64,000 nucleotides of DNA from Hirudinaria manillensis (taxonomy: Eukaryota; Annelida; Clitellata; Hirudinida; Hirudinidae), in NCBI GenBank assembly GCA_034509925.1, contig CM067531.1, forward strand, positions 9,963,319-10,027,318. The letters are read 5' to 3'. The notes below the pieces were generated by a model. It ran no database searches and had not been told where the DNA came from. It saw only the letters and a program-made list of their open reading frames with translations. Numbering within the stretch: position 1 is the stretch's first letter; each line of letters begins with the position of its first letter. The position numbers and the translations under genes are program-made. Shown piece after piece: positions 10,353 to 64,000 of the stretch.

Positions 10353-10961
10353 CTGCAATTTGCATGTAATTGCATGTTGCATTTCATTGGGAGAAATCGT
10401 CGCAAATGAAATGCGTGTCAATCGCAGTAGCTTCGTTCATGGAAAGGTTAGAAAATGATTGTTCCCAATCACAGGTTAAAGCAAAGAGTCTTTCAAACCC
10501 TGTACTATATGCCCATAAAAATCTTCAAGCCATTGCAAGAGCACGAGTCCAAAAGGACACTTTGTGTAAAATATAGACATAATATGAACACAAAGATAAG
10601 CTATACCATGGGACGTAACCAATGACAAGAATATTAGCCTCTTTTCAGTCAAGTCATTTTGACTTGTTCCAAAGATGAAACTTACATACTAATACGAACT
10701 CTTTTTTTTTCTCACCATCTCTCCCCAAAGCCACCCAAAGACATGGGCGGGAAACATAAATCGATGAGGAAAACATGAAGGGCATTACAACCCAATTCCC
10801 ACAAAAAATTTGACTTGAATATTTTAAAATTTAAAAAAAAAATTTAAAATAATTACTTAAACATGACTTTATTTAACTCAGAATTAGTGTTAATGAAGTT
10901 CCTAAAATGAGTGCAAGACGGAATTTTACGAATAAAACATTCATATTTTAACCATCATAAA

Positions 10962-26925: not shown

Positions 26926-26946
26926 TTTATTTCGTACGTCAATAAA
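26926..26946. terminator. Opposed poly(A) signals of KIF3B and LCLAT1
   Basis: AATAAA on the plus strand at 26941-26946 is the first canonical signal after the KIF3B stop, and it overlaps the LCLAT1 stop codon. TTTATT at 26926-26931 is AATAAA on the minus strand, eight bases after the LCLAT1 stop. Used together they would give antisense-overlapping 3' ends. Confidence 0.5.
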
Positions 26947-28733
26947 ATATCGATGTTTTGCAGTTCGCCGTCAGGAATTCCAGTCCGCCGAGTTTTGTAA
27001 ATAAAACGTAGGCAAAGCAGGAGACGAGAACGAAGAATTGGACGTAAATTGAAGAACAGCAGACGTAAAAGGAGATCGCGATGAACAACAACCACGAAAA
27101 AATGGTGACGTAAAGCAGGAGTCGAAAGAGGACGGAATCTCGTCGCAAGTTTTGCGGATGGTCTTTGCTTTCGTAAAGGTCTTTTAGGCGAGCCTCTTTC
27201 TCGACCCAGAGTCGTTGGCACCACTTCGCGAGCGCTTCTTTGGACTGAGGCAGTTCTGAGGAGTTGTATTTCTTAATGTGAAAGAACACCTTCTTTGGGA
27301 GGATACCCTTGATGATTTCTCTCTCGTTCTGAGGAGGTGTTGAGTCGAAGGAGATTGTAACGTCGTAGATTGCAACATCGCTCCACGCTATAAATGAATT
27401 AAAGTCAATACTTGATATCTCTTTTCTATGATGTATCTTATCTATCATATTTCTTAGTTTCTATTGTTGTTGCTGCCATGGTTATGATTAATAATGTAAT
27501 CATAAAATGATGAAAATCCCACATCATTGCGCTAATATAGCCATTAGGTTCATTGGCTTTTAACTATTGCAATTTAATCTTAGATTTATGTATCTATGAT
27601 TTTTTTTATTTAAGTATGCATACATTCTTCAATTGATTGGCTAAACATGTCCCTCACTCTTATAAAGTGTTGGTACGCACCATTTTGTTAGTTTAAAAAA
27701 ATGGTAGAACAATGCAACAACCTTTCTGCAAAGCACTTGTGATGTGAACAAAGCCAGTTGTTCTTGGATGGAGTACATAGTTGTAAATTGGTAGATTGTT
27801 TTCTTCAGCATAAAGTTTACTCCTTTGAGATGTCTTTTCATTCAAATCAGTGCCCTCAGGAAAAATTAATATCTGAAATATATGGAAGCATCTCTTGTGA
27901 GAATATGTAAATGCTGTCTTGGGTCATTGTGCATTGTGGGCTAATGGTCACACTTTGCATTTTCTTGACAGCATTTTGACTTGCTAACCCATTGCTAAGA
28001 CATTCGCATTTTGCTTATCATCATCTTCATAATAATCACAATAAACTAAACTTTGAAGACTAAAATAAACTCAAACATTATCCAAAGTAAATAAATTAAT
28101 TAAACAGAACTTACGTGTGATTTGTAATCCAATGATTTAAAATAACTGAGAATAACATCTAAATAGGCTTCATCATGTTCCCATTTTCTCTCCAGAAAAA
28201 GGAAGCTGGCTCCCTGCATTGCCCAGCCTGCCACCATTAATAATTAATTGAAATGCTACATCAAAGAATGGCTAAGTCTACTTTTGCTCACCAGCTCCTG
28301 GTACACTTTTTAAAGAAGACTTTAACACAATCTTCTCTCTGCGCACCTTTGTCTGCCTTATCAAAACACTCCAAAAATACATCCAGTCAAAACATGTTCT
28401 ATGGTTCATCAAAATCAAGCTCTGCTCATCTGCATCGATGACATCTCCTGTGGCAATCACTTCCACTGACAGGAATTTTTCTAATAAAGCCTAAAATTAA
28501 TAATGCCTTAATGCTTAATCAAATCAATGTTTGATCCGTTAACATCATCTAATGTTACTTACTGCCGCGAGCCATTCCCATGCACCGATGGCATGGTCGT
28601 AAAGAAATCGGTACCATGCAGGTTTAACAATATACGATACAACACAAGCGGAACCAAGAAATATAGAACCAAAAAAACTTGATAAAAATAGTATCAGGAA
28701 GTAAATATAAACTTTAAGCTGCTCTAAAGTCAT
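26939..28733 (-). CDS. LCLAT1: Lysocardiolipin acyltransferase 1-type 1-acylglycerol-phosphate acyltransferase
   Basis: This is a membrane acyltransferase of the PlsC/AGPAT family. LCLAT1 enzymes re-acylate lysocardiolipin and lysophosphatidylinositol at the ER and mitochondria-associated membrane. Five minus-strand exons (28733-28563, 28490-28292, 28227-28115, 27872-27722, 27387-26939) give 360 residues, against 376 or 414 for human isoforms. Residues 8-36 form an N-terminal membrane segment. The catalytic motif is NHRTCFDW (His87, Asp92), the substrate motif is FPEGTDL (165-171), and LHPRTTGF follows. Near residues 300-345 lie further hydrophobic segments. AGPAT3/4/5 share motifs, but SLKSVPGAGWAMQ and YNYVLHPRTTGFV fit LCLAT1 best. 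The donor after exon 4 is GTTGTT, off consensus but kept by phase. Confidence 0.9.
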
Positions 28734-37600: not shown

Positions 37601-39442
37601 ATGCTTCTTATTGGCATCGGCATTTGTAATTTGAAATGCAATCCACACAAGACTTAATAAACGATTAATTACTTTCTAACCAGTGAAATTGTAATAAATT
37701 AAAATTAAACCAATTTAATGAAATGTACAGTATTACTGAGCAAGAATCAGATCCAAAACAAATTACTGACAAATACAAAGCAATCAGACAAAACCAACCA
37801 ATGGCAAGAGAGCAGAAGATATAAGACCCAGGGGGCGTGGCCAGGAGCCTCGTGCAGCCAACCACGACCACATTCATCTGTCCGATGCTCAACTTCATGT
37901 TCCTATAAAAGACATCCTTTGGCTCCACTTTCTGAGTTGGCATGACGAAGAAAGGTTTGTAGCGAATCTTGTAATTTGGAAGCGTGTGCTTCTTTCGAAC
38001 TTGTCTCTTGATCTGCAGATGATGTTCTAATTGGTCAGTCTAACGTTCCAAAATTAAATTTAAGATTTTGTTGAATATGAATTATTATTATATTATTATA
38101 AATCTTTGAATGTATATATAATCCCATTTTGTAAATGATTGAAATTGTCAAATAGATTGCCATTTTGTTTCTCTGTATAGCAGAAGCCAACCTGATTGGT
38201 TATGATGGAAGCCAATTGAGCGATTGGTCTACCTTCGAAATGGGAATCCACTTCAAATTCAAGTATAGGATCCTGACAAACAAGGTAAGCCATAAAGCAT
38301 CAATTAAAATTATTATTATTTGTTACCAATTGTTATAATTGGCATAAATTTGCATTAATGAATAGCTAATGTCTAACATCCTGTTTGATATGTCTGATAT
38401 CTCACCAATTGTGTGATGATAATGAATATTAAAATGGCATATAATTAACAATATAAATCCAAATATAAATCTCTTCTCAATGGCAACACAAAACAATACA
38501 AAGACAAACCACCTTTGTGAATGCAAAGGACCAATGCCTGTAAGGAACTGTTGAGAACTGGAGTCTGGCAGTCCCTTGCAGTTTGGTTACCGTCACCGAA
38601 AGATAAGCAGACTTTCCGAAAACCATGCCAACGTCGACAGCCAATTGAAAGCGACCGTTGTAGGTCAGGTCGAGAAGTATGGCGACCTCGTCTATGACGT
38701 GGTCTTCGCTGACCGAGATGTTGGATAAGGAGACGTTTTTGATGATGGGAAACGTCCTCCCAAGGTTGAAACCTCGGATGCGGATTTCATCGAGTAGTTT
38801 TCCAGTTGTTGATTGCAGAAGCTCAGAGAATTCAATTTTAAGCTTTTTCATGGCCCATCTAAATTTTCATTGTATTTTTAATAATTATTTGGATGAGGTT
38901 TATTTATTAATGATAATGCTAGAATGTTGGAAATACAATATTTAAAATTATTTCGTGTGAATGAATGAGTATTTGCATCATCAAAGTCATTATTAACTTG
39001 CTGAATATAAAGAGTCAGAATTTAGAAAATGCTAGAGAACAGAGTACAGATTATAGAGTAACAAGCAACAATATAATTTCCCACAATTAACAGGATTTAT
39101 TCAAATTGACTCACTTTCTCACACGGTCAGCATCCTTCAATTCTTGAAAGAGAAATTGGAAGATAAAGTTTAAACTTTTATAAGATTCCTTCTCATCCTG
39201 AACATTCAAGTTTTCAAAAATATTTAAAAGCTCCTGGAATTAAAAATTTCAGTAACAGCATTCAAGGGCTATTTTCCCAACAAAAACCAATACACCTGTG
39301 GCAGAACAAATGGATCAGATTGTGATTTCCACTTGTCAGTGACAATGGGGAGAGACTTGAACCAATACCGAAAAAATACATACTGAACAAGCAACGTTAA
39401 GATGATTCCAAAAAATATGCTCAGCAAAATGACTCCAATCAT
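29634..39442 (-). CDS. PDZD8: PDZ domain-containing protein 8 (ER contact-site lipid transfer protein)
   Basis: PDZD8 is an ER-anchored SMP-domain lipid transfer protein at ER-endosome/lysosome and ER-mitochondria contacts. Nineteen exons, 5' to 3' on the minus strand: 39442-39296, 39233-39115, 38858-38513, 38272-38192, 38012-37799, 37186-37080, 36418-36332, 36078-35996, 35224-35146, 34558-34307, 33995-33906, 33476-33333, 32999-32893, 32675-32499, 32401-32323, 32107-31984, 31373-31222, 30810-30643, 30434-29634. They sum to 1118 residues (human 1154). Order: N-terminal membrane anchor (2-24), SMP (about 88-260: ELLQSTTGKLL, VFGKSAYL, HFEGRPIAQL), PDZ (about 328-405), C2-like (about 520-670), C1 zinc finger (about 684-735, from HNFQ to CQQQTTC), coiled coil (about 830-910) and an acidic tail. 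Met at 39442 is chosen because TTTTGCAG just upstream looks like the acceptor of a 5' UTR intron. The exon 7 donor is read as AAG|GC, because only that gives a PDZ of normal length. Confidence 0.95.
32120..32280. repeat. TTAA-rich simple repeat in a PDZD8 intron
   Basis: Repeated TTAATTAATTAA runs interrupted by TAGGGTTAGGTTAA, present twice (near 32150 and 32243). It lies between the two exons encoding the C1 zinc finger. Confidence 0.7.
34635..34676. repeat. (AATC)n microsatellite
   Basis: About ten uninterrupted AATC units in PDZD8 intron 9. A looser related block follows at 34995-35090. Confidence 0.85.
35370..35739 (-). mobile_element. Interspersed-repeat remnant in a PDZD8 intron
   Basis: Read on the minus strand it begins CCTATATAAATAAAAATGCA and ends GCAACGCGTGGCTGGGCACC followed by ACTAGT. 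This arrangement is familiar from widespread invertebrate repeats whose one end is an ATATAAATAAAAATG stretch and whose other end carries a GCAACGCGTGGC-type block. I cannot assign the class (3' end of a LINE, Helitron or MITE), and no coding frame remains. Confidence 0.5.
36098..36330. repeat. CAT/ATG-rich simple repeat filling PDZD8 intron 7
   Basis: Degenerate (ATG)n on the plus strand. On the minus strand it stays open in the exon 7 frame and would read His/Ser-rich, but it sits between a GC donor (36331-36330) and the exon 8 acceptor and is most simply intronic. Confidence 0.7.
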
Positions 39443-41237
39443 TGCAAAATGCTGCAAAACCAATGTTTTTCATAGAATAGAGTCAACGATTAACATCAGT
39501 CTCAAAAATAGTAATAAAAAACCTTCAAAAAGTTAAATGAAGAATGCGATCTTGGATCATGTCATGTGTAGTCAGATTGTTCCCGTAAGTTTAATGAAAC
39601 GTAATATGTTTTTCATCCAAACTGGCTATATTATCCTAGCGAGTAAATAAGGATAACTTATCATACAACTAAATTAAACATTTTAAAGAAAGAAAGCGTT
39701 ATATAACAATAAAGCAATTGCAAGTCCACAAAACAATGGTCATGCTTATTTTTATTTTTATTTAAGCAAACACGTCAGTCAAGAGTGAAACCCCACCTTT
39801 AATTTAAAATTACTAGTAATTTGAGGTGTGTAAACAACGATAGTTTTGTTTAAACACCACGATAATAACGGCTTTAAAATAATGTTATTTTATGTAGCTT
39901 TAAAAACGGATTCATCTTGCAATCCTTCTACTAAATCTAACACGTAACTTTTCAAATTAGGACTTAAAATAAAATTCGCACCTTACTCAAAGGTACAAGA
40001 GATCTTAATGTTATTTATTCAAATGTTGCGTTACTATCTATCAGCGACATAAGTGTTGTTGGCTTGGATTTTGTTATTTGTGAGATTGTCATGTAACAAG
40101 TTAAAGAAATTTAGGCAACACCTCTTCTCACATTGACATGTTTTCGCTTGCTTCAATGAGCTAAGAAAGGCCTTTAGGTATGGAAAACAACGGGCTACCT
40201 CATTGACGAGATACAGTTCGGAGATTTCAATAACGATTTAGAGAGGATACGATTATATTATATTATTATAAATTTCTTTTGAAGATTCCGAGTGAGAATC
40301 AGGCGCTTCTTCCACAAATTGAAGCTGCACAACCAATTATTCCCGCGCCAGTCCTTTGATCTCCACCTGGAAATACCGACTTCCGTCTAACAGCAGCAAA
40401 AAGTTTCATTTTCCAATCCTTTTGTAAACTGTTTCTTTATTTAGAAGATATAAGGTAAATAACTAAAACCAATATCTTCCAGCTTCGTTTTAATCTCAGC
40501 CCTTCTATAGTTGATGATGTCATAAAATTGAATTAAAAATTATGTATTGAAACAAAAGGAGAAATATAAGAATGGACATAAACGAAAAACTAACGAGATA
40601 TGATAAAACAAGAGCAAATTAAAAATAAAGCATAAACGACATAAATATTAAAATGACAGATAATTGTGACAACAAACAAAATACAACCAGTTCATGGCTT
40701 GGAGGTTAAAAAGTTTGAGTGGAGTTAGCGAACGACCTCAAATCAAATCAATGAATCAATACTGAACCACGGTTGACTAGCTGGTGACGTGTTGCAAAAA
40801 GTATAAAATCATCTTGCAGAATAAATACACTCAGAATGAAAACAATGACGACAGAACAAAACAAAAAACAAAAAAACTCAATCGCATCAGCGCTCGGCAG
40901 CCGTCGAAAAGGGGTCCTCGAGACCGCCACGTAAGCAGAAAAAAATTAAAAAAAATAACACAAACATTGACGACAATGATACAGTTGAGCCGATACCGGT
41001 AGCCATAGAAACGCACTTCCCTTAGCAGACCTAGGACTGAGCGAACCCTATAGATGAACCTACAATAGTAGAAGCTTATCGTCGCAGGATGTCAAAAGTT
41101 GATAAAAAAAAAAATTAAAAAAGTTTTGTCGTCAAAGCTTTCGAGATCCTACGTTCACCGATCGACTCGTTTTTGTATGCATTTTGTATTTGTTTCGTAT
41201 TCCTTTACGAGAAGAAGAAGAAGTTGCGACTGGTCTC
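39443..41237. other. PDZD8 promoter/5' UTR and 3' flank of the nucleosidase gene
   Basis: No coding exon was found. The stretch at 40332-40352 holds a CCAAT and TTCCCGCGCC (E2F-like) and could be part of the PDZD8 promoter. The rest is AT-rich. An A-rich minus-strand flank near 41095-41125 could mark the end of the nucleosidase transcript, but no canonical signal was identified. Confidence 0.4.
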
Positions 41238-43821
41238 TCAATCCTGGGGCTTCTTCAAGGTCTCGAGCACGGACTTCATGAAAGCCGCGGCCGCCAGGGC
41301 TGCGTACGGCTGCCACTCGACGTTCTTGGTGCCGTCCACGTAGTCCGCGACGCCCCTGATGATCAGGAAGCTCTCCTTTCGACTGCCTACTATGGACTCC
41401 AATACCTGAACGAATGTCAACTTATTTAAATTTCATGTTTTCATTCGTGACTTCTTTAATCAAATATCTTGTGATTTCTTGGAACTAACTCAATAATTAC
41501 CTCTTAGTAATTTAATTAAATTAAAGATTTAATCCAAATTTGCATCAAATTCACCTGATCAAATTCACTGTCCAGTCCGATGCAGTGATATTTGGAAGCA
41601 AATTCCAGCCTGGTCTGGTCGTTGTGGACTATGGGCTTTCCAGATCCTATGCTACCGAAGTGGATGGCTGGAAAGCCTGGCTTGCTGGATGGTTCTCTGT
41701 TGTCGTCTGGTTTTGTAGGATGCCCAACCTGTATGTGCATCAAAGAGAGAAGTTATGAGTGTAGAACAGGCTAGGATTTCAAATTGTTGTTTTTAACTCA
41801 TCAACAGATTTTTTATGGTTTGTCATAATTAAAACACTCCTGTATTTTAATTTAATTCAAATATAAGAGAACTTTATTATACTTATATAATCTGTATCAT
41901 GTATGTAAACTTGTCTTAATTAAACCCCTATAATTTGATTATGGATGGATGGAGGGGTGGATGGATGAATGGGTGGATGGAGAGAGAATGGGGAGGTAGA
42001 TGAGTAACAATTCATTTGATATAACGACCAACCAAACAACTACCTCTATGACATCGTTTCCTCCTACGTTCATGAACAACCTGTCAGTCTCAGCAGGTGG
42101 TCTGGAGAAGGCGACCTCCTGACCTTCCAGGGCCTTCTGACCCTCGACGATGTAACGCTCCCAGACCTGGAGGTCACCTTCTCCGTGCTGGAACTTGAAG
42201 CTGCCCTCCTTGAGTTGCCTGGAAAGATCGAGAAGCGTGGAGTCTTTGGCTTTCCAACCTTTGACAGAAAACTTCGTAGTGTTCAGATTCTCGTCCGTCG
42301 TATCTTCCTTGACGGTCTTGTCGCAGTAAATGTAGTAACTGTCAGACGTCAGGTTGCCGCTGGAGACGAGGATGTCACCCAGTCTGACGTGTTTATAAAA
42401 GTCAGCGTAGTGGGGCACGCCTCCGCAAACTCCTACCAGCAAGACGTGGTCTATCTCTCCGAAAGTGCCTGTAATAAGGTGTAATATAAACAGTACTATA
42501 ACATGGTTGTTAACAAGGTGGTAGTCAAAATAACTGCCAGGGTATTAACAAACGAAAATAATTACAAAAAATTAATGAGTACGATGATGATGATGATAAT
42601 AATAATAATAATAATAATAATAATATTAATAATTAATGAATTTAATAAAGACGCATGAAGCATGATAGCTGGACTCTCAACTGAAAGTAGTTCCAAAATA
42701 ATCACAAACAAAACACCACAAAGTAATATTTCATAGCAAAGAATATAAGCCTTTAAATCATACAAGAGTTAAAAAGCATTTTAATGACTTTGGTGCATTA
42801 CAAGACAAAACAGAAGAGTTTCTCGTGATTTCTTGTAACTCCAATAATTACCTCGTATTAATTAAATCAAATTAAATTAAATTAAAGATTTAATCCAAAC
42901 TTTGATCAAACACCTCTCAGGAGGACCCCAACATATCTCTCAGCTCCAGGCAGGCAGAATAAATCAAAAGAACTCACCGAGGAGTCTGGTTGTGGTGTTG
43001 CCCGAGGATATTTGGGCGGCCATTTGTCTGCCGATGGCTGGAAGTTTGGTCGAGACGACTTTGAGGGATCCTATGTACCCGATGGTGTAAACATTTGATT
43101 CCCCTGCAAACAAATTTTCCAACTTATAATGCAATGCAAAATAGATTGGTTTGTGACTGACATGTGCATGTTTGTTAAATGTATTTAAACTAAAGTATTA
43201 TTATTATTATTAAATGTATTTAAAATTTATAAGTTAATAATTGTTTGTAAAATTATTTATATACTATAAATTATTTATATTATTTATTAAGTAAGTATTA
43301 TTAAAGATTATTATAAGTATTATATTCATTAAAATATTTAAACTAAAGTATTATTATAATTAAATGTATTTAAAACTTATAAATTAAATGAGATTGACCG
43401 TGCCAAGGATATTATTTATATCAAATGCAAATAAAACCCAAAATGGACTTGAGTCACCTTCGGTCTTGTACTTGACAAAAGTGGTTTTGTTTTCCATCAT
43501 GGCATCGACTGCCAATTTCTCATAATACTTGGATGTTACGATGGCCACCGATGGTTTTGTGCCATCTATCTGTGATGGAATGTTCTTCACTATCTTCAGC
43601 TCTGCATAAATAATTTGTGATGACTTAATTATTATTATTATTATTATTGTTATTATTATTATTATTATTATTAATTGACAGTTTTTGTTTACACTACTAT
43701 ATAATACACTACTATGTAATAAGCCCATAAGTGGGAGTGTATCCCTCCTGGATATCTCTAATTTAGTCCTTTTGTTTAGTTTTTTTTTGGCAAATAAATT
43801 TGTGTTACACTTTGAATGAAC

Positions 43822-43857
<36 letters not shown>

Positions 43858-46800
43858 GCTTACTAATGGCTTACTTAAGCATTCAATTGGTTCAACCAAT
43901 GACAAAGTTATTGGTATAATGAGAGTTGAGTGCAGAAGTTGTGATCAAAGTGAATGACTGTATTTGTAAACCGATGTAAGCCATATTTGTTTTTTTATTC
44001 TGGTTGCTCTTATTAGCAGAAGTTAAAATAAAACTCTTTAATTATGAAATAAATAAATAAATAAATAAATATAGCAAATATAATAAATTAATAGTAAGTA
44101 TAACAATATCTTAAAACCCATAAAACCAAGTAGATACTGAATGAGCTAATCATTTAATTCAGAAGATTAATTTGTTGCTCACATTTGTTATGCAATCAAC
44201 ACTTAGTATACAATCAATATTCAATACAATCAATACTCAATATGCAATCAATATTCAATACAATCAACATTCAATATGCCTCATCAATTGATTTCTACCC
44301 CTACTGACCTGACTTCCTGTCCAGCACCTTCCTGACCCACCTCCCAGGTTCAAGTTCCTTGATGAGGTTCCTTTCTGATAAAATTCTCAACTGCTCCTGA
44401 AGAGTGGCATGGTCTGTCTTGAGCATCCTATAATATATATATATATATATATTATAAATATAAATATATATTATAAATATAAATATATATTATAAATATA
44501 AATATATATATTATAAATATAAATATATATATATTATAAATATAAATATATATATATTATAAATATAAATATATATATTATAAATATAAATATTATGATG
44601 TGATATTTATGCATCCATCCATCCACCCATCCATCCACCCACCCATCCAACACCCATCCATCCACCCACCCATATGTATATATGTGATAATAGAAAAGCT
44701 GATCCATGGTGATGTAAGATGGTTGTAATCATGGTGACGTGAGGTGATCTATGGATTGATAATTGTATTATTGCCATATTATAATTGTATTATTGCCATG
44801 CCAAAGACAGAAAGAAAAATTTCAGAACATCTAGTTCCACTAGCCACGAGATGAACTCAATCACCCCTAAAAAGTTATCAGCCTTTCAAGAGAAGGAGAG
44901 AGTGATAATAAAAGATGAGAGATTGCGATGGTGTGAAAGTTCAAAAAGATTATCAGCTCTTGTTTATTTCAATCGCTGCTTAACACGATCCAAACGATCA
45001 AGGCAGGCGATAATGATAAGAACGTTGATGAGCACGGAGATTGATGTGTGCCGTGATGATGACGATGCAGACCGTGACGAGTCTCTGAGGTCTCTCCTGA
45101 TAATGATTAGGCTGGATTAATGCCATTTAAATCGAAGCAGGTAGCTCCAACCCCATGAGATTGTTTGCGGAATCCAAAAATTTGCCGATAAAAGCTTCAC
45201 AAATTTGACTAAAAGCTTACTCGGCTCATTTGTCCTTTTGAATTGACGATCGTACGCGGTGATAACGGAAGAATATGTGATAAGAGTTACAAACATTAAT
45301 ATTAATAATGGCAATCAATTTTACGTTTATTTATGCTTATCTACACATAAAAAAATGGCATCAGCTGAAATGAAGCTGGCATAGAGTTATTGTGGGACTG
45401 AACACCGCTGAACCGATAACCCCTCGAGATCAGTCAGTTCAGCCTTCGTCCTCATCATCACAACCATCACTATCATCATCATCATCATTTGACCAAAAGA
45501 CAGTCGTCGTGGTTGCTGTTGTTGCTATTACTTTTTCAAAGTCACTAAAACTACTTCGTCCAGGTGTTTGTTTTCAGGAGTTTACCTGCTCAACTCAGAA
45601 TAAACGTTTCAACACCTCGTGATTGATTGCAATCCACTGTACTTAAAGGGTCACCAACCAGACAAGCGGAATCAACTTCATTGAGTAGCCAAAGAAATGG
45701 ATCTACATAATGGATCTGTATAACTGATATGTTATACCATACGTATTACTTATAATACATTATATCATACGCCCCATATGTATCATTCACAACATATTGT
45801 ACCGTATGTGATATACTGGATCTACCATATAATGGATCAACCATGTATAATATGTTATACCATACGTATCACTTATAATACATTATATCATATGCCCCAT
45901 ATGTATCATTTCATAACATCATCAACGCTGCGTCATCATCATCATCATCACCGCCATCATCATTATCATCATCCATATGTGATATACTGGACCATATGTA
46001 CTATATGAACCATAAATACGTCAGGGACCAATATATGGCGTTGGTCTTAATTAATTAACTTTACATATGTAACTAGAAGCCAGTGAAAATCAATCTCAAT
46101 ACTCAAACATCTGATCTCCAAATTGTTCAATCCTTTGTTTTTATTGATGATGTACTTCAAAATAACGATCGATTGAACGTATCAATGTAGCCACACATTC
46201 AATGCAGCCACTCACAGCACAACTTCCACCTCTAAAGATCATTCTTCATGCTTAGAAACCTGAGTACAGGCAGAACTTTGTGTACCACGTGCGTGTTACA
46301 AACGATTCAGAGTTGCATTAACTAATTAGATCGTAGCCATCATCAACGCTGCGTCATCATCATCATCATCACCACCGCCATCATCATCATCACCACCACC
46401 ACCATCATCATCATCAACGACAACATCATTATCATCATCATCCATGAATGCTACTCATGAATGTCAGCGTTTCCGAGCGAGGCAAATCATGACAAAACAA
46501 ACACAAGTCCCACGGAACGAGGGATTTCCATTTCCATGTTTGCAAATCACTTGGAGATTCCTCCAATTGTTTTACCGTTAGCTTATTAATACTTCTGATG
46601 CCATGAAAGAACTTCCATCGATAACATATTCCGGTTTCCATGGCAACATAATATTAATTCAGATCCTTATTTATGATTGAAAATTACTCTCTACGACAGT
46701 GGAAAGATGAATGGATGGAAGGAAGGAAGGATGGATGGATGGATGGATGGATGGATGGATGGATGGATGGATGGATGGATGGATGGATGGATGGATGGAT

Positions 46801-49800
46801 GGATGGATGGATGGATGGATGGATGGATGGATGGATGGATGGATGGATGGATGGATGGATGGATGAGAGGATGGTATCAAAGAAGGAGCAGCAGGTGGTG
46901 ACTCACTCTAGTAGGTCATCAGTGGGGAGTATGTTTGGGTAGGCAGACTCCAAATAGTGGAGCAGTTGTTCTTGAACAATCATCTCCTTCGGTCTCTTAT
47001 CTTCCCTGTTGAGACCTGGAAAGATGGAATCTCACTCTGCATTCGTTTAATTAATATTTACTAATTTATATATTAATAAATAATAATTTTATTATTATTA
47101 TATAATATATAATAGTAATAAAATACAATTATAATATTATTTAATATGTACTAAAATACAATTAAAATATTTGATATAATATTGAACATTACTATAACTT
47201 CGATTAAACACTAAATGCCTGACTATATGAGCACCATATGGATAATATTGAGATTGTAATGCAGACGTAATTGGATACAAACACGAGATGACTGACGTAA
47301 TAATGTTTGTAACGTGGATCTCTCTTAAGGTGCAGTTCTTATGGAACAGAACATGGATGTGATGATGTAACTCCAACAATCAATGATTTTACATCCATTT
47401 TAAGTCCATCAGATTACCAATCAGATGTGAGTTCAATACACCAACGACAGTATAGTACCACCAACAACAACAACATCAACATTGTGAAAATCAATCAATA
47501 ATCAATCACCTTGGGCGATTGAGGAGATTAATTTACCTAATTATTTCTTATAAATAAAGTGCTGATAATATACTAATACCAATATACTATAATATATAAT
47601 TATATATAATATAATGTATTATACTAATAAAACCATCCCCTATAAGATAAGAACATGAAATGGAACAATCCAATACCACTTACCACTGCCTTCGCACAGG
47701 GAGACTGAAAAACGAAAAATTAAGAATTGTATAAATAAATATTAATATTAATTAATTATTAATGTTGCATCTATAGTAGGATTATAATAACGTCAAATAT
47801 TGATGCAGTATTGATAAATTGGTCCCCTTTGGGTGACATTTTCGACTGAAGGCATCCCCGAGGTATAAGGTATTTGATGGCCTCGTGGACCTCTGGACAA
47901 TAGCACTAATGTGATGGTGTCCACTTAACCTCGCCATGGAGGACCATCCTACACCCCTTGGGGACCATTGTATGCCCCGTGGGGAGAGGAGGGTGTTGGC
48001 AAATGCAATTAAATGGCATTAATTGTTAGCATGTGTTTTAAATTCAAATACGCAATGCCTGCGACCTATACATACACTCACATACATACAAACTGACACT
48101 CACACACATGCACACACACACATGAGAAAGTTAGCATGTCAAGGTCATTTGAATACTTCCAATTAGAGATAACAGTAAACCAATGGATGTCAGTAAACCA
48201 AAAAACAAGTTAATTATTTGTTACAACTTGTCCATCACAATTGTTAGTAATTTCAGTAAAACCATCGACACAACCGCCTATCATTTGCACAAACATTTGA
48301 ACAAGTAAATTATTAAAGACAATGCAATGGTATTACATACTGTGTAATACAATATACACACAATGTACATACCATGTACACTAGGGTGCCAATTAAAAAT
48401 GTTTTTTTTCGAAATTGTTAATTCCCGTTCCAGAAATTTGTTCATTTTACATTTCTAAGGCTATACACAAAATATTAGGTAAATCAAACGTCATTTAGAA
48501 CTATCTTTAGCATCTTGAATATCCCAAAGTACTTAAACATTGGGTATAATAGCGGAAATTACATGTTGCGCACATTTTATATGGTTAATTTCGATAGCAA
48601 GAAATATTTTAGGTTTTTTTTAATAAATCTGTTTAATTTCGAAAATTTTTTTTTTAATTGGCACCCTAATGTACACACAATGTAATACAATGTACACGCA
48701 ATGTAATACAATGTACACAAAATGTAATACAATATACACACGCAATGTAATACGATGTACACACAATGTAATACAATGTACACACAATGTAATACAATGT
48801 ACATACAATGTACACACAATGTAATACAACGTACACACAATGTACATTGTCTAACAACAAACGATTCCTAATCGAACGATCGTAGAAGAATGGAAATCCT
48901 GAGTAACCAACCGCATGCCATGCAGTCGCTTTAAGTGGAGTAAAAAAAGGTTCTTTTCGCTGAAGTATTAAGTATCATTATCATCATCAACCTACACGAA
49001 CGTTGTCGACAACGTAACCGTGGAAATTGGATGCTGACTCAACATCATCATCAACACCATCGTAATCATCATCAGCAGCAGCATCATTGCTACATGCAGT
49101 CGTCTTAAATGGGAAATAAGTTCTTTTCACTTATAGACTATCATCAACTTGCATCATCGTCGTCATCATCATCATCATCAGCACCACCACCACCACCATC
49201 ATCATCATCACGGTCCTGTCATCACATCCATCATCAGCATCGAGTGAGCTATTTTAATCGTTAATTAGAAGACTATCTCGGAGCATTAAGAATTTCGACA
49301 TCACTACAACCATCATCGTCATCGTCGTCATCACCACCATCATCCATATGACCCCTATATGGAAAACAACCCCCAAGGTCTGATTCCCACGGGCAGGTAG
49401 ACAAAAAGTCACAACAAAGTGATAGAAGTTCAACTAGGAATCGTTTATTTTTGCAGTGAAATTTCAACACCGCCAACCCAACATTCTTTGAGAATTTATG
49501 TTTTAAGAAAGTAAAGCAAGAAAAAGAAAATAAAAACAATTTAAATATTCACGAGTTAGTCGTACGTGGCAACAAAGCATGCCAAACAACAACAACAATA
49601 ACAACAACAACAACAACAACAACAACAGTAACATTAACAACAACAACAGCAGCAATAACAACAACAACAACAACAGCAACATTAACAACAGCAACAACAA
49701 CAGCAACAACAACAGTAACATTAACAACAGCAACAACAACAGCAACAATAACAACAACAACAGTAACATTAACAACAGCAACAATAACAACAACAACAAC

Positions 49801-52352
49801 AAATAACGAAATTAGCATAAAAAAACATTGTCCGTTAGTTCACAATCGCCAATCAAATCTGAGACTCTCGAGCCACGACGACTCATCGAATCAAAACATA
49901 CCATAGACTTTGTTCGTGTATCTTCTCTCAGGAACGTTTTCTGATAAGTGTCAGAAACAATCGGTCATAATCAACTGCTAATAGGCCCCTATTACGACCT
50001 CTACATCGTCGTCATCATCGTAATTATCATGCTCTCCATCGACACAATCACAATCATCATCGAGTGCGCCCTATTCATCATCATCATCACCACCATCATC
50101 ATCATCATCGTCGTCGTCATCGTCATCACCACCACCATCATCATCATCATCGTCGTCGTCATCATCATCATTATCCGAGAGGTCCGGGATCAGCGGACAA
50201 CACAAAGATTAGTAAGGCAATCTCCATTCCACCATCATAACCATCACGTCATCACCAATCACCATCATTATCATGATCATCACATCATCATCGTAACGAT
50301 CCTCATCATCAGCATGCATCCTCTGTCGCAAACAGCGCCACCGGAAGAAAACAGGATGCGTCCGAAAATCAGAAATTTTTCCACCAAGGCTCCACGGATT
50401 CCATCCAACAAAAACTCCAGAGTTAGATAATCGTGTAATACCTTCGAAGGTATGCATTGTACGCTTGTTCAATCCAAGTCTAGTACTATCGTGGAAATCA
50501 TTTGGATGTGCACGGATGGAGTGAATGAATGGCAGAAGTAAGCATTCAAGTGACAAGAATATTTATATACATATTTATTTATTTATTTATTCCATTATTT
50601 ATATACATATTTATTTATTTATTCCATTATTTATATACATATTTATTTATTTATTCCATTATTTACACACATATTTATTTATTTATTCCAATTTTATTTA
50701 TTTATTTTCGTAATCAGTCAATCAAGAATAAAATGATCCATAAGATAAACATCCACAACATGTCGATGCATCTCCGCTCCCGGTTGCCATGGTAACCTGC
50801 ATCCATCAATCTCCATCAATCTTCGGTAACTACAAAGTCGACACTCCCGACGAATATCATCATCATCATCATCACCATGGCAACAACATCCGATCAACAT
50901 CGTCATCATGACTGGCTTTAATTATTGTTGTTGTTTTTTTCTGGCAACAAGTTCTTCTTATCAGCCAGTGGTGGAATGAAAAGCAAGCTGCCAAGTTTTA
51001 TCATGGAACATCCGATGATTTCACAGCCAACTTGGAACAACTTAGAACAACTTACATTTGTAAATCAGTCAACTTTTGAGATAAAACTAGCTGATGATAT
51101 GTGAATAGAAAGTAACTCAGTGCTAAATCTAACTAACGAATCGCTATCGGCGATAATGATGATGATGATGATCATACCAATGGGTTTTTACGTAATCAGA
51201 ATTGCCACAAAATGCACCAACAGAGCTTTAATATGTTGATAGTTTAAAGAAACTATACTAGCTTATTTGCATTCTCAGAGAATACTCTATGAAAACATTA
51301 TTTAGGTGGTGGATCTAAACTGCCACTTGAAAACTAAGAAATACCACATCATTATCATCATCACCAAATCAATAACAATTTCATCGTAAACATCACCATC
51401 GTCATACGCGATGATGACCATCGTCGTCATCGTCATCATCAAATCAATGTCATCATCATCATCAAAGTTCAAAGTTCCTCATTTTCTTCTGTTTTCATTG
51501 ATATCCTATTAATTTTTAAAACCACCTCCTTTATTACAAAGTGTAATACCTTTGTTTAATGTGCTTCTTCACCACTAAGCTGATATGATTATCATCAAAG
51601 CCATTGCTACTGCCATTACCATAACCATCATCATCATCATCATCATCGTCAGCATCATCATTATCAAAATCATCTCCATTAGACATTATTAATATAATAA
51701 CGTGTTTAATTATTGAAATGAAATCAGATAAAGCATTATAATCACAAACTGGCAGCTTTCAAGCAGCTGTGGCCATCACCACGCCATCACCATACCATCA
51801 CCACGCCATCACCACGCCATCACCAAGCCATCACCTGCCATCATAGGATATGAAAAGACTTCTGATAATTATGATCAACACAAGTTCCATGGAGCTTTCA
51901 TTTGATGATTAATTAATTTAAATAACAAAGCAATTTAATTTCAATTAAAAAAACATAAATTCAAACAAAGCATTCATTAATGTGAAATAATGAAAGCATG
52001 GATATGAATTAAATTAAAATTAAAAATGCAAAAAAAGTATAATAACAAATTAAAATTTCATTTAATAATAATAATAATAATAATAATAGTAATAATAATA
52101 ATAATACTGATGATGATAATGATAATAATAATAATGATAATAATAATAATAACAATAATAATATTAATAATAATAATTAATATTTAAAAAAACCCAACCT
52201 TGAGACTGTGTTTCCTCCTGATTGAGTTGCCTGAGATTGGCTTCAATGCGCTTCACGATGTCATATTTTGGTGATTGGAGTTGCTTCATCATCTTCTTTA
52301 TGAAACCAACATAGTCTGATGGAGCAGGCAACAAAGCCAGTAAGGATCAACA

Positions 52353-52387
<35 letters not shown>

Positions 52388-53851
52388 CCATCCTCCTCCT
52401 CCTCATCATCATCACCATCATCATTATCATCATCATCAAAGAACATGATTGTTAAGAAGGGCACTTCAGAATTACTAATGGTTTTCTTGTTTGATAATTT
52501 TCATGAACATTTACAGATCTACATTTAAATCCAGATTTTTGTATTTAATAAAATTAAACCTCATCGAGTAATTTTGCAAAGTTGTTTCTACTTTTATGAA
52601 AATAAAGTTACAAATACAGCAAAGGAATATGATTTGCACAAAGTTAACAACGTTTTTAAAGGCCGCACTTATTAATTATAAATAATTAATTACAAATTAA
52701 ATTATAATTAATTATAATTATAAATCAAATCAATTATAATTATAAATCAAATTAATTATAATTATAAATCAAATTAATTATAAATTAAATTAATTATAAA
52801 TAATTAATCAGTAACATCATGAAAGTTTATCAAGGATTATTAACTGAAACTGCTTTCACATGATTATCATTAGAACATCAAAGGCATCGGAACCTCTCGG
52901 AAACTGCTCCGGTCTGACCAGCTCCCTGAAGAAGTCGTAGGCACTCGTCACTCTGTCCAAATAGTCAGTGTCGGCTGCAAACCAAAATTTCAGGATCCTG
53001 TTTTCCTGGCATTTGGGAATGTAGAAGGAAAAAGTTTATCCAAATATTCAAATATTAATCAAATTATTTAATATTTTTTATCATAATATCCTGATGCTAA
53101 AGCTCACAGTACTTTCAAATAAATCTATTATTATTATTATTGCTGAATATTTGAGTTTTTGCAATAAAAGACTTAACAGTTACATTGATCAGATATCATG
53201 TAACAATCACAAAATGTTTAATTATTTTTGGCTAAAAGAAAGAAACAAATCCCTCCAAAAATAGATTAAAAATCTCGATTTCAAAATAAACCTACAGCAA
53301 TGTGTTTATCGGATTTCTGATCAACGAGAAAACACTTAAATTCAAGTAAGAGGTGAGGAACACTGTCTTCATCGTTTTGACCTATAAACACGAAAACGAT
53401 CTGATTTAATCCTTAAAAAACAAACACATCAGATATTTTTATAACCACAAATGATACTAAAGTTCTTGTAATGCAGAAACAGAATGATGTAATGCTTTGT
53501 ACTAAATTCTTTGCAATAAACATATCAAGATGGTTTCTTTAAAACAAAAACTTCATTTAAATTGACCAAGTCAAACATTATTAATAAAGCTGATTCAATG
53601 AATCACATCATTGAGTCCCTTAAACAAAAATAATAAAAATGAAATAAAGTGAAAAATCATTTTCAAATCTTATACAATGAATCACAAATGCACCAACATG
53701 TCTGCTGTTTATTGACCACAAGTCCACTGTGCTGTCCACCTGCCACATGGGCAACCTTGGATTCGTCTAGTTGCGTTTTCTTAACTTTTTCAATGGTGAT
53801 GATAGTCGTGTCCCCTTTCTTGGAGGGGGTCATCACGATCCCTGTCAGCAT
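41238..53851 (-). CDS. Winged-helix plus PNP_UDP-family nucleosidase/phosphorylase protein
   Basis: Twelve minus-strand exons join in phase to 584 residues: 53851-53698, 53381-53296, 53005-52894, 52315-52199, 47704-47684, 47015-46907, 44427-44309, 43601-43458, 43103-42978, 42468-42044, 41728-41555, 41405-41238. Residues 240-584 form a nucleoside phosphorylase/nucleosidase domain: LLVGVCGGV (339-347), RLGDILVSS (358-366), [14 protein letters not shown] (495-508), LDSEFDQV (Glu526, at the ribose-binding Glu position) and [11 protein letters not shown] with [15 protein letters not shown] (Asp550 or Asp553 at the catalytic acid position). Residues 164-239 resemble a winged helix ([20 protein letters not shown]). 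Residues 1-163 are unrecognised. There is no signal peptide or membrane segment. Substrate is not predictable from sequence. The closest motif resemblance I know is to PNP domains of fungal NLRs and immune ATP nucleosidases, not to metabolic PNP or MTAP. The start ATG follows an in-frame TAA, but TGACAG just after it could also be an acceptor, leaving the first residues uncertain. Confidence 0.85.
42582..42625. repeat. GAT/AAT microsatellite
   Basis: GATGATGATGATAAT followed by about eight AAT units, in an intron of the nucleosidase gene. Confidence 0.8.
43630..43675. repeat. (ATT)n microsatellite
   Basis: Two runs of ATT separated by GTT, upstream of exon 8 of the nucleosidase gene on the minus strand. 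Confidence 0.8.
43824..43858. repeat. (GAT)n microsatellite
   Basis: Eleven perfect GAT units. Confidence 0.85.
44431..44596. repeat. AT-rich minisatellite next to a splice site
   Basis: Tandem copies of ATTATAAATATAAATATAT, starting immediately upstream (minus strand) of the acceptor of exon 7 of the nucleosidase gene, whose polypyrimidine tract is therefore replaced by TATATATA. Confidence 0.85.
44610..44672. repeat. CATC/CACC simple repeat
   Basis: Alternating CATC and CACC units, interrupted once. Confidence 0.8.
46634..46647. promoter_or_regulatory. RFX X-box-like motif
   Basis: GTTTCCATGGCAAC fits RYYNYY-AT-RRNRAC, the X-box bound by RFX factors. It is intronic in the nucleosidase gene. 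Confidence 0.35.
46723..46866. repeat. Long pure (GGAT)n microsatellite
   Basis: About 34 uninterrupted GGAT units after a GGAA-type start, 40 bases downstream (minus strand) of exon 6 of the nucleosidase gene. It gives spurious open frames on both strands. Confidence 0.95.
48320..48845. repeat. Minisatellite of ACAATGTAATACAATGTACAC-type units, split by a MITE
   Basis: Repeats of ACAATGTAATACAATGTAC with ACAC spacers run from about 48345 to 48383 and resume at 48667-48845. The MITE at 48384-48666 interrupts them. Confidence 0.8.
48384..48666. mobile_element. MITE with TA target-site duplication
   Basis: The ends are GGGTGCCAATTAAAAA on the left and its complement TTTTTAATTGGCACCC on the right. 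Similarity extends about 34 bp to CGAAATT on both arms. The element is bounded by TA at 48382-48383 and TA at 48667-48668, the duplication expected for Tc1/mariner-type insertion. There is no coding capacity (283 bp). Confidence 0.85.
49585..49804. repeat. (AAC)n-rich trinucleotide tract
   Basis: About 220 bp of AAC units with AGC, ATA and AGT interruptions. It reads as poly-Asn on + and poly-Leu or poly-Val on -, and is rejected as coding. Confidence 0.9.
50555..50705. repeat. About 34-bp tandem repeat
   Basis: Four copies of ATATTTATTTATTTATTCCA followed by TTATTTATATAC, the last with ACACAC. Confidence 0.85.
50783..50884. promoter_or_regulatory. Two RFX X-box-like motifs
   Basis: GTTGCCATGGTAAC at 50783-50796 is a near-palindromic X-box. 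ATCACCATGGCAAC at 50871-50884 also fits RYYNYY-AT-RRNRAC. Both lie in the large intron of the nucleosidase gene. Confidence 0.4.
52063..52180. repeat. (AAT)n-rich tract
   Basis: AAT runs with GAT and AAC interruptions, directly downstream (minus strand) of exon 4 of the nucleosidase gene. Confidence 0.85.
52344..52440. repeat. (CAT)n tract
   Basis: Twelve or more CAT units, a CCT run, then more CAT, just upstream (minus strand) of exon 4 of the nucleosidase gene. Confidence 0.85.
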
Positions 53852-55369
53852 TTACATATTTCAATTAGGTTTTTAATTTGTTCACCGAATTCTACTTTTC
53901 GTGAAATGTTTTAATATATAAATCAATTCAAACCCTCATCCATGGCGGTATACAAAAAATCGAAAGCGTTAAAGAAACTCGAGAGTTATCCGAGACAGGT
54001 CCCAATGTCTCCAAAGCGGCGGGAGGGTATAAAATCTACTTAATGTCTATATCCACGAATAACGAAAAGATTTAATAATTAGAGGCTACAAGTTTATTTT
54101 ATTTAAATAATTTATCTAGGTATCCATGCAGCAGACGCCTTTCCAAGCGACATGCGGGAGTGCAGGTTCCCTGCCCAGCCGAAAAATATAACAGCACAGA
54201 TGCAATTCCAGCCGGCGGAAACCATGGAATGAATGGGTGGCTGCGTTTTCCACATGCAAAAAATGAATTCTAAAACTCTCCTCTTCTCTTTGGTTGTTAA
54301 TATCAGTGTCAAACCTAAGTTTCTTCAATCTAAATCACTCGAATTTTAAAATATAAGTTTTATTCCAAAAACGTTTAATTTCAGATGTAAGTAACGAAAT
54401 GAAGCGATGCCCTCGAAATAAAATCTGAATAATGATTTGAATAAGTCGTTAAGAAAGCGTGCATCATATTTGATAATATGGCGCGAAATTAATATATTAA
54501 CCATATTCTTTACATGCTCAAAGCCAAGTTGACGCTTTTTTTTTTTTCAGCATCATTTAGTTTGGTTCGGTTAAATTTTCGTCTGGTAGCAATAACAAGA
54601 ACATTCAAAGTTAACTTTTTTCAAGAAAAACATAGTAAATATTAATATACTTTAATATAAGTATGGATAAATATTTCAATAAAATATAAAAAAAAAACAT
54701 TGCTGCTATTATTCATTCTCTAGTTAGGTTTTTGACAAAATGTGGCCATAAGCTTATATAATCGATATATTGAAATACTGAATATTATTTAACCAAAGAG
54801 GTAACAAAGTTCAAAATTAAAAGAATGGCGACGTTTCTTAAGGATGATAAAGACAAGGCAGTCAAGAGTCGAGAGTTTTTTTGCTCTGAAAATCAAAATT
54901 TAAAAAAAATATGATTTTCGTTTCCTAAAGATATCTATCATCCACAAAACAGCCCAGTCCTTTTCACAATTAAGCAGTCAATTAATTTTACACCGAGGCA
55001 TCCACCGACGAATACAAAATTAATGTTTTTCGTGGCAAAAGCTTATAGGTTAAATCTTTAAAATTCAATATTAGTTTTCGTTGGATGGTAGCTTCGAATT
55101 ATTTTACATGCAATAATTATTTATGTTAATTCTAGGCTTATTGCTATGAATTTAAAAAAAAAGCTAATTAGGATAATTAACGTCCCATATGTTCATTGTG
55201 CGCTTAGCTTTACATATAACAATTTATGATAATTTGAAAGTGTATCATTTTTTCCTGATTTTTAGATTTTTATTAATAACGGCGTTGAATAAATTTAGAA
55301 TTAAATTACAAAATATTCGTTTACATCTGCTTTTTATTGCCATTTTAATTTGTCAGCTGGTCGTACGTG
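53852..55369. other. Divergent intergenic region between the nucleosidase gene and STIM
   Basis: AT-rich, with no supportable exon. It must hold the nucleosidase promoter (minus strand) on its left and the STIM promoter on its right. Confidence 0.5.
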
Positions 55370-61400: not shown

Positions 61401-63935
61401 CCCGAGCTCGGAACGGATGTGGAATTTTTAACGAAAGCAAAAACCTAAGTGCAACCCGGCAATTAGCATCGGATGCCTAACTCCTGCCCGTGGGTCTGTA
61501 ATTGGATTAATAGGGTTTATTAGTGGTTGTGATCGTGAATTATGGCTACCTGTCTCGGAATGAGGTCTCCGAGCGAGGACTGAATGGTTGAGTTCTGACT
61601 GTTGCCACCGACTGAAGCTACAAGTCATCGGCGTTGTCTTCCTCGTCCTGGAAGCTTTTGACCGACTGTGGTGGATGCATTTTAATGGAAAAGAGGGGGA
61701 AAAAATCATGGTTTCATGACTGCATTGAGACATTAGAATTACTTTGGTTTTGGCATTGATTTGCATGAAATTAAACATTTTATGTTTTCAAATAATAATA
61801 ATAATATTAATATAATAATAATATTATTATTATTATTACTATGATTATTAATATTAATAACAATATTAGTAGGCCTCATATTATGATTATTAATAAATTT
61901 ATAAACAGCACTGTTTCGTAACTTTATTTTTTATTTTCATTAAATTCTTTTTTAAAATTTCTTTTAATTTTCTTTTTATTTACTCGAAGACTTGAAGAAT
62001 CGCAAAGGAAGCAGAGAGAAGAGGAAGATAGGAGGGATGAATTGAAGAGGATGCTGGTGAATAAGGAGTTCAAGGTCAGCGTTTATTAATGAGGCCTCTT
62101 AAATATTCATGAGCTTCTTTTGAAAAATGCCTTTGATCATTTGTTCTTTATTATAGGAAGTAGTAGTGGAAGTGGCAGGAGGTGTAGGTGTGACAATTTG
62201 TGACATTAGCATATTTAATGATGTGTGTAATTATCATAAGATGATAATTTGCATAAATTAGCATAGGATGTAATTACAATGACGATTATCTCAATTTAAG
62301 ATAAATTGAAGCTCTCGCCTGCTGTGCTTGTTTGCAATCAGGGGGCGTCTCAAAGATTTTAACGTTGCAGATGTACAACCTTTTGCACCCAACTTAACTC
62401 AGCGTAGTATCTTCGTGTTGTTACATAAGTTAACCGTGGCATTACAATATCACTGTGTTGTGGTATGGCATGGTATTGTAGTGTTGTGGTAGGGTATTGA
62501 GTGTTGTGGTATTGCAGTGAGTGTGGCATGGTATTGTAGTCAACTCATATAATTTATAATCAACTCATCATTGCAGAGTTTATTCTGTGTAAATTATGAA
62601 TTTTCTGGAGCAAGTTGTGGAAGTGATTCTATATTAATCGAGCATCCTTTCGGGCCGGGTCGGGTCATTTGAAATAATGCGATAATAAGACGATGTTTTC
62701 AGTAACCATCGCTTCAAATTTATTTTTACAATTTTTTTTTAACTGCTATTTAAAAATATTCATTTTTTTTATTGTTGTAAAAGATCATTTAGAATTAAAA
62801 ATAAATATCAGTTAACCATTTAAAATAATAAAAAAAACCAACAACAATTACTAATTACTAAAGTTCTGTTCAATGCCACAATAAATAAGAAAGATTTTAC
62901 AGAGGACGTTAAAGACTTTTCCTTTACTTCTCAGGTTGGAGGATGCGAAGATGATGAAGATGAAGACGATGTTGGTGACCTGAAGATTAAGAACTTACAA
63001 GAAGAATTGGCACAGGTACGATTTAGGCCAGTTTGATTTGTTTTGCAACTTTAATGACTTTTGCAGTTTGTTGATGTTTTCGCAACTCCATCTGTTAAGC
63101 CGTACTAGTACTATCACTACCATCACCACCACCACCACTACCACCATCACTACTGTCAGTTAAAGGAAGTTCATGTTTTTTGTCTTTAAACCAAATTAGT
63201 TTCAGACAGGCTATGTTGTGGATGTGGGTGGTTGTTGGTTGTTAGTGTTGATTATTCAACCTGGCAATCATTAATGTTCATGAACAGGACTTAACTTCTA
63301 GGAAGTTTAAACCACAAAATCACTCTCAGACTTTCAAGTGTTGACATGTTTTGATGTCAAACTTTGCCAAAGTTTCCTCGAATTGTTTTTTTTTTTTTTT
63401 AATTCAAGATTTCTTTGAAGTATATTTTTAAATATACAAAGCATTGATTAGATACGAGATGCTTGTTCGTCTTTATTTGTTGGCTGACCTGTTTATTTTT
63501 AAAAGGAATACAATAAGATAATGCAAAAACACTTCTTAATGAATTTGTCACGTTTGCAATGCAAGATCATTTTGAATTTCAATATGAATTATGTGCAATT
63601 ATAATTATATTTATAATTATGCCAATTTGGCACGTATGCAGGCAGAGCAATAATTACGAACATTAAAACTCGCTTATCGATAATTAAATTTAATTACTGG
63701 AATATCCATTTAAATGAATATATTTTATTCAGGAAAAAATAAAAATAAAATAAAAAATTTTGTCAAAAAGTGTCGCTTGGAGCTCATGGAGGCCGAATTC
63801 CGCCTGGAAGAATGCAGGCGAGCATCGATTCCTGACCTCCAACAGTGGCTCCAGTTGACCTATGAGGTCGAGTCGAAGTACATTGAGGAACGAGGAAATC
63901 AGGTCTTCAAGAGGCTTCAGGAGGCGAAGAAGATG
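55492..63935 (+). CDS. STIM: Stromal interaction molecule (ER calcium sensor), 5' part
   Basis: STIM senses ER luminal calcium and opens Orai channels at ER-plasma membrane contacts. Nine exons join in phase: 55492-55654, 58470-58594, 59176-59290, 60169-60280, 60633-60748, 60954-61128, 61990-62074, 62935-63015 and 63771-63935 (379 residues). The gene continues beyond the window. Residues 1-25 form a signal peptide (LVIILMLALQCCLLEA). Two luminal cysteines, 56 and 64, correspond to human Cys49 and Cys56. The canonical EF-hand loop is DDDQNGNLDRSE (82-93). The hidden EF-hand ends in DLISVHDLWHFW, and the SAM domain covers about 133-205 (VHNWTVEDVILWLDL). The single membrane helix is at 218-236. 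CC1 covers about 237-335, and the SOAR/CAD begins at PDLQQWLQLTYEVE (345-358). The exon 9 acceptor (GTCAAAAAG) has a weak tract and its donor (GTTCGT) is inferred from family alignment. Confidence 0.94.
55655..58469 (+). other. STIM intron 1
   Basis: A 2.8-kb intron between the signal-peptide exon and the EF-hand exon. Phase is preserved without any additional exon. It includes a 12-bp tandem repeat and two overlapping open frames near 56800-57060 that I do not accept as exons. Confidence 0.6.
57224..57353. repeat. 12-bp tandem repeat, about 11 copies
   Basis: Units of ACATTTGTATGA with A/C, G/A and TT/CA changes. As the period is a multiple of three, it reads open on both strands. Confidence 0.9.
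59107..59162. repeat. Perfect 56-bp palindrome in STIM intron 2
   Basis: AAAATCAGATTAGA, a TTAA core and TCTAATCTGATTTT form a perfect inverted repeat with no spacer. It ends 13 bases before the first base of exon 3. Confidence 0.95.
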
Positions 63936-64000
63936 GTTCGTGACCTTTGATTGACCTCAAATGTTAACAACCAATTAATGTGAGTAATTAATATTCTAAT

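Follow-up and report, generated by a model that had tools for sequence, protein, structure and literature searches.

Which task an animal protein may perform that joins a winged helix to a nucleosidase-like domain is the question raised by a gene of the leech Hirudinaria manillensis. The gene lies on the minus strand of the window, which is the whole stretch of 64,000 nucleotides analyzed here. It encodes an N-terminal region, a winged helix, and a C-terminal PNP_UDP domain. The gene is real, and these three regions belong to one conserved gene. The reading tentatively favored here is that of an animal N-ribosyl hydrolase of the PNP_UDP superfamily, which would be of the conflict-effector type and controlled by its own N-terminal region.

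Gene model

The gene was rebuilt from the raw sequence of the window and corrected with a paralog on C10 as a guide. The resulting minus-strand model contains 12 exons with GT-AG introns in one consistent phase and ends at position 41238. The original prediction had described a phase-consistent 12-exon model, and all six motifs quoted there find their place in the rebuilt one. Its length of 584 residues, however, was not reproduced: the protein comprises 561 residues in the first model and 564 in the paralog-guided model, with the reading frame open throughout. The ATG at 53851, formerly taken as the start codon, is probably intronic because an acceptor at 53841 and an ATG at 53833 are both conserved in C10. 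This AG acceptor is located 8 nucleotides (nt) ahead of the ATG in both genes. Coding likely begins at ATG 53833 or in some exon farther upstream; no upstream coding exon common to the window gene and C10 was found at E values up to 0.01. The junction between exons 2 and 3 also differs from the one first given, with exon 2 now ending at 53296 and exon 3 starting at 53005, by which the conserved motif E-N/S-RILKFWF is gained. The 21-nt exon 5 (47704-47684) is missing from the C10 model and may be skipped in frame. The exons are as follows:

53740-53841, minus strand: exon 1 (the first found), with the acceptor at 53841 and the likely ATG at 53833; AG and ATG conserved in C10
53296-53381, minus strand: exon 2, N-terminal region; donor shifted to 53296 from the paralog
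52894-53005, minus strand: exon 3, N-terminal region; acceptor shifted to 53005 from the paralog
52199-52315, minus strand: exon 4, N-terminal region
47684-47704, minus strand: exon 5, 21-nt microexon, uncertain; not in the C10 model
46907-47015, minus strand: exon 6, encoding the first half of HTH_69
44309-44427, minus strand: exon 7, encoding the second half of HTH_69
43458-43601, minus strand: exon 8, where the PNP_UDP domain starts, with E247 at the MTAN E12 position
42978-43103, minus strand: exon 9, PNP_UDP domain
42044-42468, minus strand: exon 10, PNP_UDP domain motif and most of the long insert
41555-41728, minus strand: exon 11, with E506 at the MTAN E174 position
41238-41405, minus strand: exon 12, with D530, K536 (Asp+6), W540 (MTAN F207 position), and the stop codon

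Conservation of the gene in a full-length paralog

The leech's own genome was searched with exon 10 and with exons 11 and 12 as queries, so that copy counts are lower bounds. At least two relatives of the window gene are present, at C10:476295-482228 and on C2, giving at least three copies in all. The C10 paralog consists of 13 coding exons and 551 residues and aligns over its full length, with 345 of 550 aligned residues identical (63%). Nine of the ten introns of the window gene occur at the same place and in the same phase in C10, with the microexon counted within one intron. The intron between exons 10 and 11 is shifted by 17 nt, and two extra introns lie within the C10 counterpart of exon 10. 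Differences between the two genes reach a proportion of 0.797 at synonymous sites (pS), which is near saturation, and of 0.24 at nonsynonymous sites (pN). Constraint is strongest in the PNP core (pN 0.118), followed by the winged helix (0.166), the C terminus (0.215), the N-terminal region (0.255), and the insert, which is the freest (0.364). A chance origin of the gene model is excluded by this full-length paralog with shared introns and mostly silent changes. Since both the constraint and the shared introns extend into the N-terminal exons, these are part of the gene, as the original prediction had supposed.

Domain architecture

The 564-residue protein is composed of an unrecognized N terminus (residues 1-134), HTH_69 (residues 155-213), and the PNP_UDP domain (residues 235-564). 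The region formerly called winged-helix-like corresponds to HTH_69 (PF22979), which scores 35 bits against a Pfam cut-off of 27 and 38.6 bits in C10. An exon-by-exon scan of the genome for HTH_69 missed it because an intron divides the winged-helix domain. PNP_UDP_1 (PF01048) matches residues 262-353 with 17.5 bits (19.9 bits in C10), below the Pfam cut-off of 25.1. The original proposal of a winged helix joined to an effector-type PNP_UDP domain is supported; the assignment to the superfamily stands by homology and by the catalytic residues in the alignment with members, whereas the family threshold is missed. In a phmmer comparison with 18 references, the window protein matches an Agrobacterium PNP protein with 3e-14. 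A long insert, encoded mostly by exon 10, is not seen in the bacterial enzymes of the alignment.

HTH_69 and PNP_UDP_1 are the only families matched in a Pfam scan of the whole corrected protein at E values up to 10. Herein, NACHT, NB-ARC, or AAA were not matched in the 564 residues, with an unseen upstream exon being possible, and no TRADD-N or death-like domain was detected. Pfam scans of the window protein also gave no response-regulator domain. For residues 1-134, no Pfam family was matched at E values up to 10 in a scan of the N-terminal region of the first model. Searches of the PDB with the N-terminal 134 residues and with the full protein gave nothing convincing (best N-terminal match E 0.19). 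A match to SLD5 in the PDB search, with an E value of 0.00055 at first, dropped to 0.04 with a two-gene profile and was rejected.

Active site

By alignment with Escherichia coli MTAN, the positions E12, E174, and D197 of that enzyme correspond to E247, E506, and D530 of the window protein. In MTAN, these are catalytic positions. The active-site residues pointed out originally as Glu526 and Asp550/553 are present and become E506 and D530/D533 in the corrected numbering. At the E12 position, udp and deoD carry an Arg, whereas the window protein has a Glu. The protein is likely a hydrolase because the MTAN catalytic set is kept and the phosphorylase Arg is absent.

Six residues behind the Asp, a Lys is found in the window protein (K536) and in C10; E247, E506, D530, and K536 are retained in both. 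This Asp+6 Lys is shared by 18 of 21 accessory bacterial nucleosidases. The members of that set are interdependent: seven belong to the Detocs type, three bear bDLD3, and most of the set was found via one bait. The Lys occurs in none of 12 MTANs, which comprise 7 of 12 MTAN-like proteins that had been collected and five others. One further protein, Rhiz_PNP, was dropped before this count, and its Lys was seen by eye in an earlier alignment. The Asp+6 loop presumably lines the 5′ end of the substrate in the MTAN structure. The shared Lys is no more than suggestive of ATP nucleosidase activity.

The paralog on C2 is diverged, with clear matches from 1658598 to about 1660509 (loci L040 and L047). 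It was translated from exon pieces with provisional joins. In these pieces, the Glu of the E174 position, a ribose-site residue, is replaced by Gly and the Asp+6 Lys by Val, and the E12 and D197 positions are retained. HTH_69 was not matched in the C2 pieces tried. Because of the Gly and the Val, the C2 paralog may be a dead enzyme.

Phylogenetic placement

Four trees were computed. In the first, with 25 rows including long ones, the three animal genes group together (99/99), and their split from MTAN and the phosphorylases is weak (49/93). In the second, with 32 rows, the long rows removed, and more references, the 12 MTANs form a separate clade with 100/100. This clade excludes the animal genes with 100/100 also after removal of G150, or of G150 and three others. 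The animal genes fall among accessory enzymes in all four trees. Their nearest group is the Detocs-type in three of the four and never with full support (51/86, 69/79, and 88/81). As judged from these trees, the animal genes are located outside the MTAN clade, one of the metabolic clades against which the original prediction called for a check; for their deeper placement, the trees settle no grouping.

G150:C406 (L064, 2-2830) is a PNP protein from a bacterium that matches AAA_16 weakly, and its pairing with the animal genes may be long-branch attraction. The group of the animal pair and G150 in the 32-row tree (97/95) was not used, as two long branches meet there.

Bacterial relatives

The domains of the window protein and of C10 were used to scan 398 genomes from the phylum to which G001, an Agrobacterium, belongs (hence Pseudomonadota). 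The window domain matched in seven of them, with one protein each, and all seven proteins are multidomain. These are HNH_2-PNP-EAD7 (two), PNP-bDLD3 (three), a 2065-residue PNP-TPR protein with HTH_upst_double_PIN (one), and PNP with AAA_16 under the cut-off (one). EAD7 and bDLD3, one or the other of which is carried by five of the seven, are described as modules of bacterial conflict systems in PMC8195603. The C10 domain matched five proteins in four of the 398 genomes, namely four of the same seven and one Detocs-type effector (597 bits to PDC-M60C). For comparison, PF01048 occurs in 96 of the 100 genomes of a subset, with at least 188 matches, and three of those 100 contain a match to the window domain. 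Single-domain MTANs are absent from the window and C10 domain matches in the 398 genomes.

Against references, the window protein matches an Agrobacterium HNH-PNP protein with 3e-11 and a Klebsiella Detocs-type effector with 3e-8; the accessory references were collected with the Agrobacterium protein as bait, and that set alone is biased, more so than the scan of the 398 genomes. By BLASTP at E values up to 10, mtn and deoD of E. coli give no match, and udp and amn give matches of chance level only. A search of genome contigs gave no locus with the single protein and two loci with a two-row alignment. Relatives on plasmids amount to 14 records, all of them from Agrobacterium, and none were found in phages and viral contigs. 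In one record (L005 3356-4412, pTiLBA1191), the Agrobacterium HNH-PNP gene is matched in two pieces and looks broken; in 13 other Agrobacterium records, it is matched in one piece.

Comparison with known systems

The best bacterial match of the window protein is given by the HNH-PNP-EAD7 proteins of Rhizobiaceae (L006 and L051) and of genome G036 (L057). They share with it the catalytic positions, the Asp+6 Lys, and the W-Q-x-Y-A-A end. They differ by HNH and EAD7 in place of the winged helix and by lacking the long insert, and the identity amounts to 26% over 143 residues. Detocs-type effectors (PADLOC PDC-M60C; L015, L018, L022, L024, and L054) share the E12, E174, and D197 positions and the Asp+6 Lys, the Detocs label being assigned here from operon layout and the PDC-M60C scores of L015 and L054. 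In these, a response regulator is fused to PNP within a three-gene two-component operon, whereas the leech gene has neither. The Detocs PNP is reported to cleave ATP (PMC11249213). A Cap17-like CBASS nucleosidase (L017) has the PNP_UDP domain and the Asp+6 Lys in common with the window protein, but it contains the Pfam domain "ATP nucleosidase Cap17-like, N-terminal," neighbors a CBASS cyclase, and forms a separate tree branch. E. coli MTAN (mtn) agrees at the E12, E174, and D197 positions, but it consists of a single domain, lacks the Asp+6 Lys, and gives no BLASTP match.

Among eukaryotes, PNP_UDP is described as frequent among the N-terminal effectors of fungal NLRs, and NLRs of the coral A. 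digitifera are reported to contain it as well (PMC4986451). Compared by description only, these resemble the window protein in placing PNP_UDP in a eukaryotic multidomain protein. They differ in that PNP_UDP is N-terminal there and C-terminal in the leech protein, in which NACHT/NB-ARC is unmatched. Sponge (Amphimedon) TRADD-N proteins may end in PNPase effector domains, according to PMC8195603. As described there, these are likewise animal proteins with a C-terminal PNP-type effector domain, but they carry TRADD-N, which is undetected here. PNP_UDP effectors in animals are already published. An animal protein of HTH_69-PNP architecture was not encountered in our literature search, but curators may already be aware of the family, since HTH_69 has a Pfam entry.

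Possible function

The favored reading, a conflict-effector hydrolase under its own N-terminal control, implies the following course of events. The enzyme would hydrolyze a purine nucleoside or nucleotide and thereby release its base. The Asp+6 Lys, common to Detocs-type and Cap17-type enzymes, would favor a substrate phosphorylated at the 5′ position, for example ATP. A trigger, either a nucleic acid or a partner, may be sensed by the winged helix together with the N-terminal region, whereupon the enzyme would be released and would deplete nucleotides in the stressed or infected cell. A role as immune ATP nucleosidase is plausible. A more specific version, which we consider doubtful, is that of a free-standing animal ATP/dATP nucleosidase that senses nucleic acids through a winged helix of its own and needs neither an NLR nor a two-component partner. 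It would comprise an active pair on C6 and C10 and a dead C2 paralog as possible regulator, and would thus be a metazoan counterpart of bacterial nucleotide-depletion defense in one polypeptide.

Defense by nucleotide-cleaving effectors is reported from bacteria, and it has been proposed for fungi and for some animals. If the reading is correct, a winged helix–nucleosidase outside any NLR offers a simple single-protein system for asking whether ATP depletion serves animals as an immune act and to which signal the winged helix responds. A one-residue test of nucleotide versus nucleoside preference is provided by the Asp+6 Lys.

In favor of the conflict-effector reading are the retained MTAN catalytic set, the multidomain nature of all bacterial proteins matched by the window domain, most of them bearing conflict modules, the Asp+6 Lys, the exclusion from the MTAN clade, the mostly silent changes along the entire gene, and the presence of separate metabolic PNP and MTAP genes. 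Several observations weigh against it. The similarity to bacterial effectors is weak, at best 26% over 143 residues, and mostly limited to the last 90 to 140 residues. Two of the seven matched proteins lack a clear conflict module, three accessory bacterial rows lack the Asp+6 Lys, and the 21 rows behind that count are interdependent. At least three gene copies were found, and no large immune-like expansion was seen. In approximately unbiased (AU) tests, a sister relationship of the animal genes and MTAN is not firmly rejected (p 0.076, 0.048, 0.377, and 0.149), nor is a grouping with the phosphorylases (p 0.45). Placing them beside the HNH-EAD7/SAVED proteins (p 0.094 and 0.043) or beside the bDLD3/TPR proteins (p 0.059) is not favored either. 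The PADLOC models "Effector PN-superfamily" and PDC-M60C were rejected as effector proof, as E. coli and Cetobacterium MTAN match them too; E. coli MTAN outscores the window protein and C10 on both.

An enzyme of ordinary metabolism, hydrolyzing MTA/SAH, adenosine, or inosine and bearing the winged helix as an oligomerization or regulatory add-on, is unlikely but the strongest of the alternatives. It agrees with the three MTAN catalytic positions, all of them kept, with the AU values for MTAN sistership, and with the few gene copies found. Opposed to it are the exclusion from the MTAN clade (100/100) and the absence of the Asp+6 Lys from all 12 MTANs. The MTAN equivalog PRK05584 (NCBIfam) gives the window protein 18.1 bits against a cut-off of 169, and no single-domain MTAN was among the matches in the 398 genomes, though PF01048 is present in 96/100 of the subset. 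In addition, the leech genome contains separate metabolic genes on C4 and C5, to which we assign the names PNP and MTAP from sequence features; salvage therefore needs no extra hydrolase.

It is rather improbable that the protein is a regulator of the winged-helix type in which the nucleosidase-like domain has a nucleoside or nucleotide as its ligand and does not turn it over. HTH_69 is a fold of the DNA-binding type, the Pfam match of PNP_UDP_1 is weak (17.5 bits), and both the E174-position Glu and the Lys are missing from the C2 paralog, all of which would suit a ligand-binding role. The window protein and C10, however, retain E247, E506, D530, and K536, and the PNP core is the part with the lowest pN. 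An artifact, with two neighboring genes joined or a decayed copy modeled, is very improbable: the long introns full of simple repeats, the uncertain microexon, and the lack of observed transcripts would allow for it, but exon order and nine of ten introns are common to C10 at 63% identity and with mostly silent changes.

Genomic setting and introns

The neighbors of the gene look animal. In the window, they include an Ets domain (9793-10383), an acyltransferase C terminus (26942-27460), and a STIM SOAR region (63714-63947). An exon at 38477-38866 on the minus strand resembles a lipid-transfer SMP domain, with an MMM1 match just below the cut-off, and presumably belongs to a TEX2-like neighboring gene.

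The introns are dense in simple repeats, with GATG, AAC, and TAA arrays at 46706-46874, 49585-49802, and 52063-52182; tandem-repeat rows within 41200-53900 number 51. Intron 4 contains an element of approximately 300 bases with 34-base inverted ends (48366-48684). At least 39 more copies of approximately 250 bases and 89 to 93% identity are found in the genome. Ten opposite-strand pairs of this family are spaced approximately 950 bases apart, as if long terminal inverted repeats bounded a transposon of 1.2 kb.

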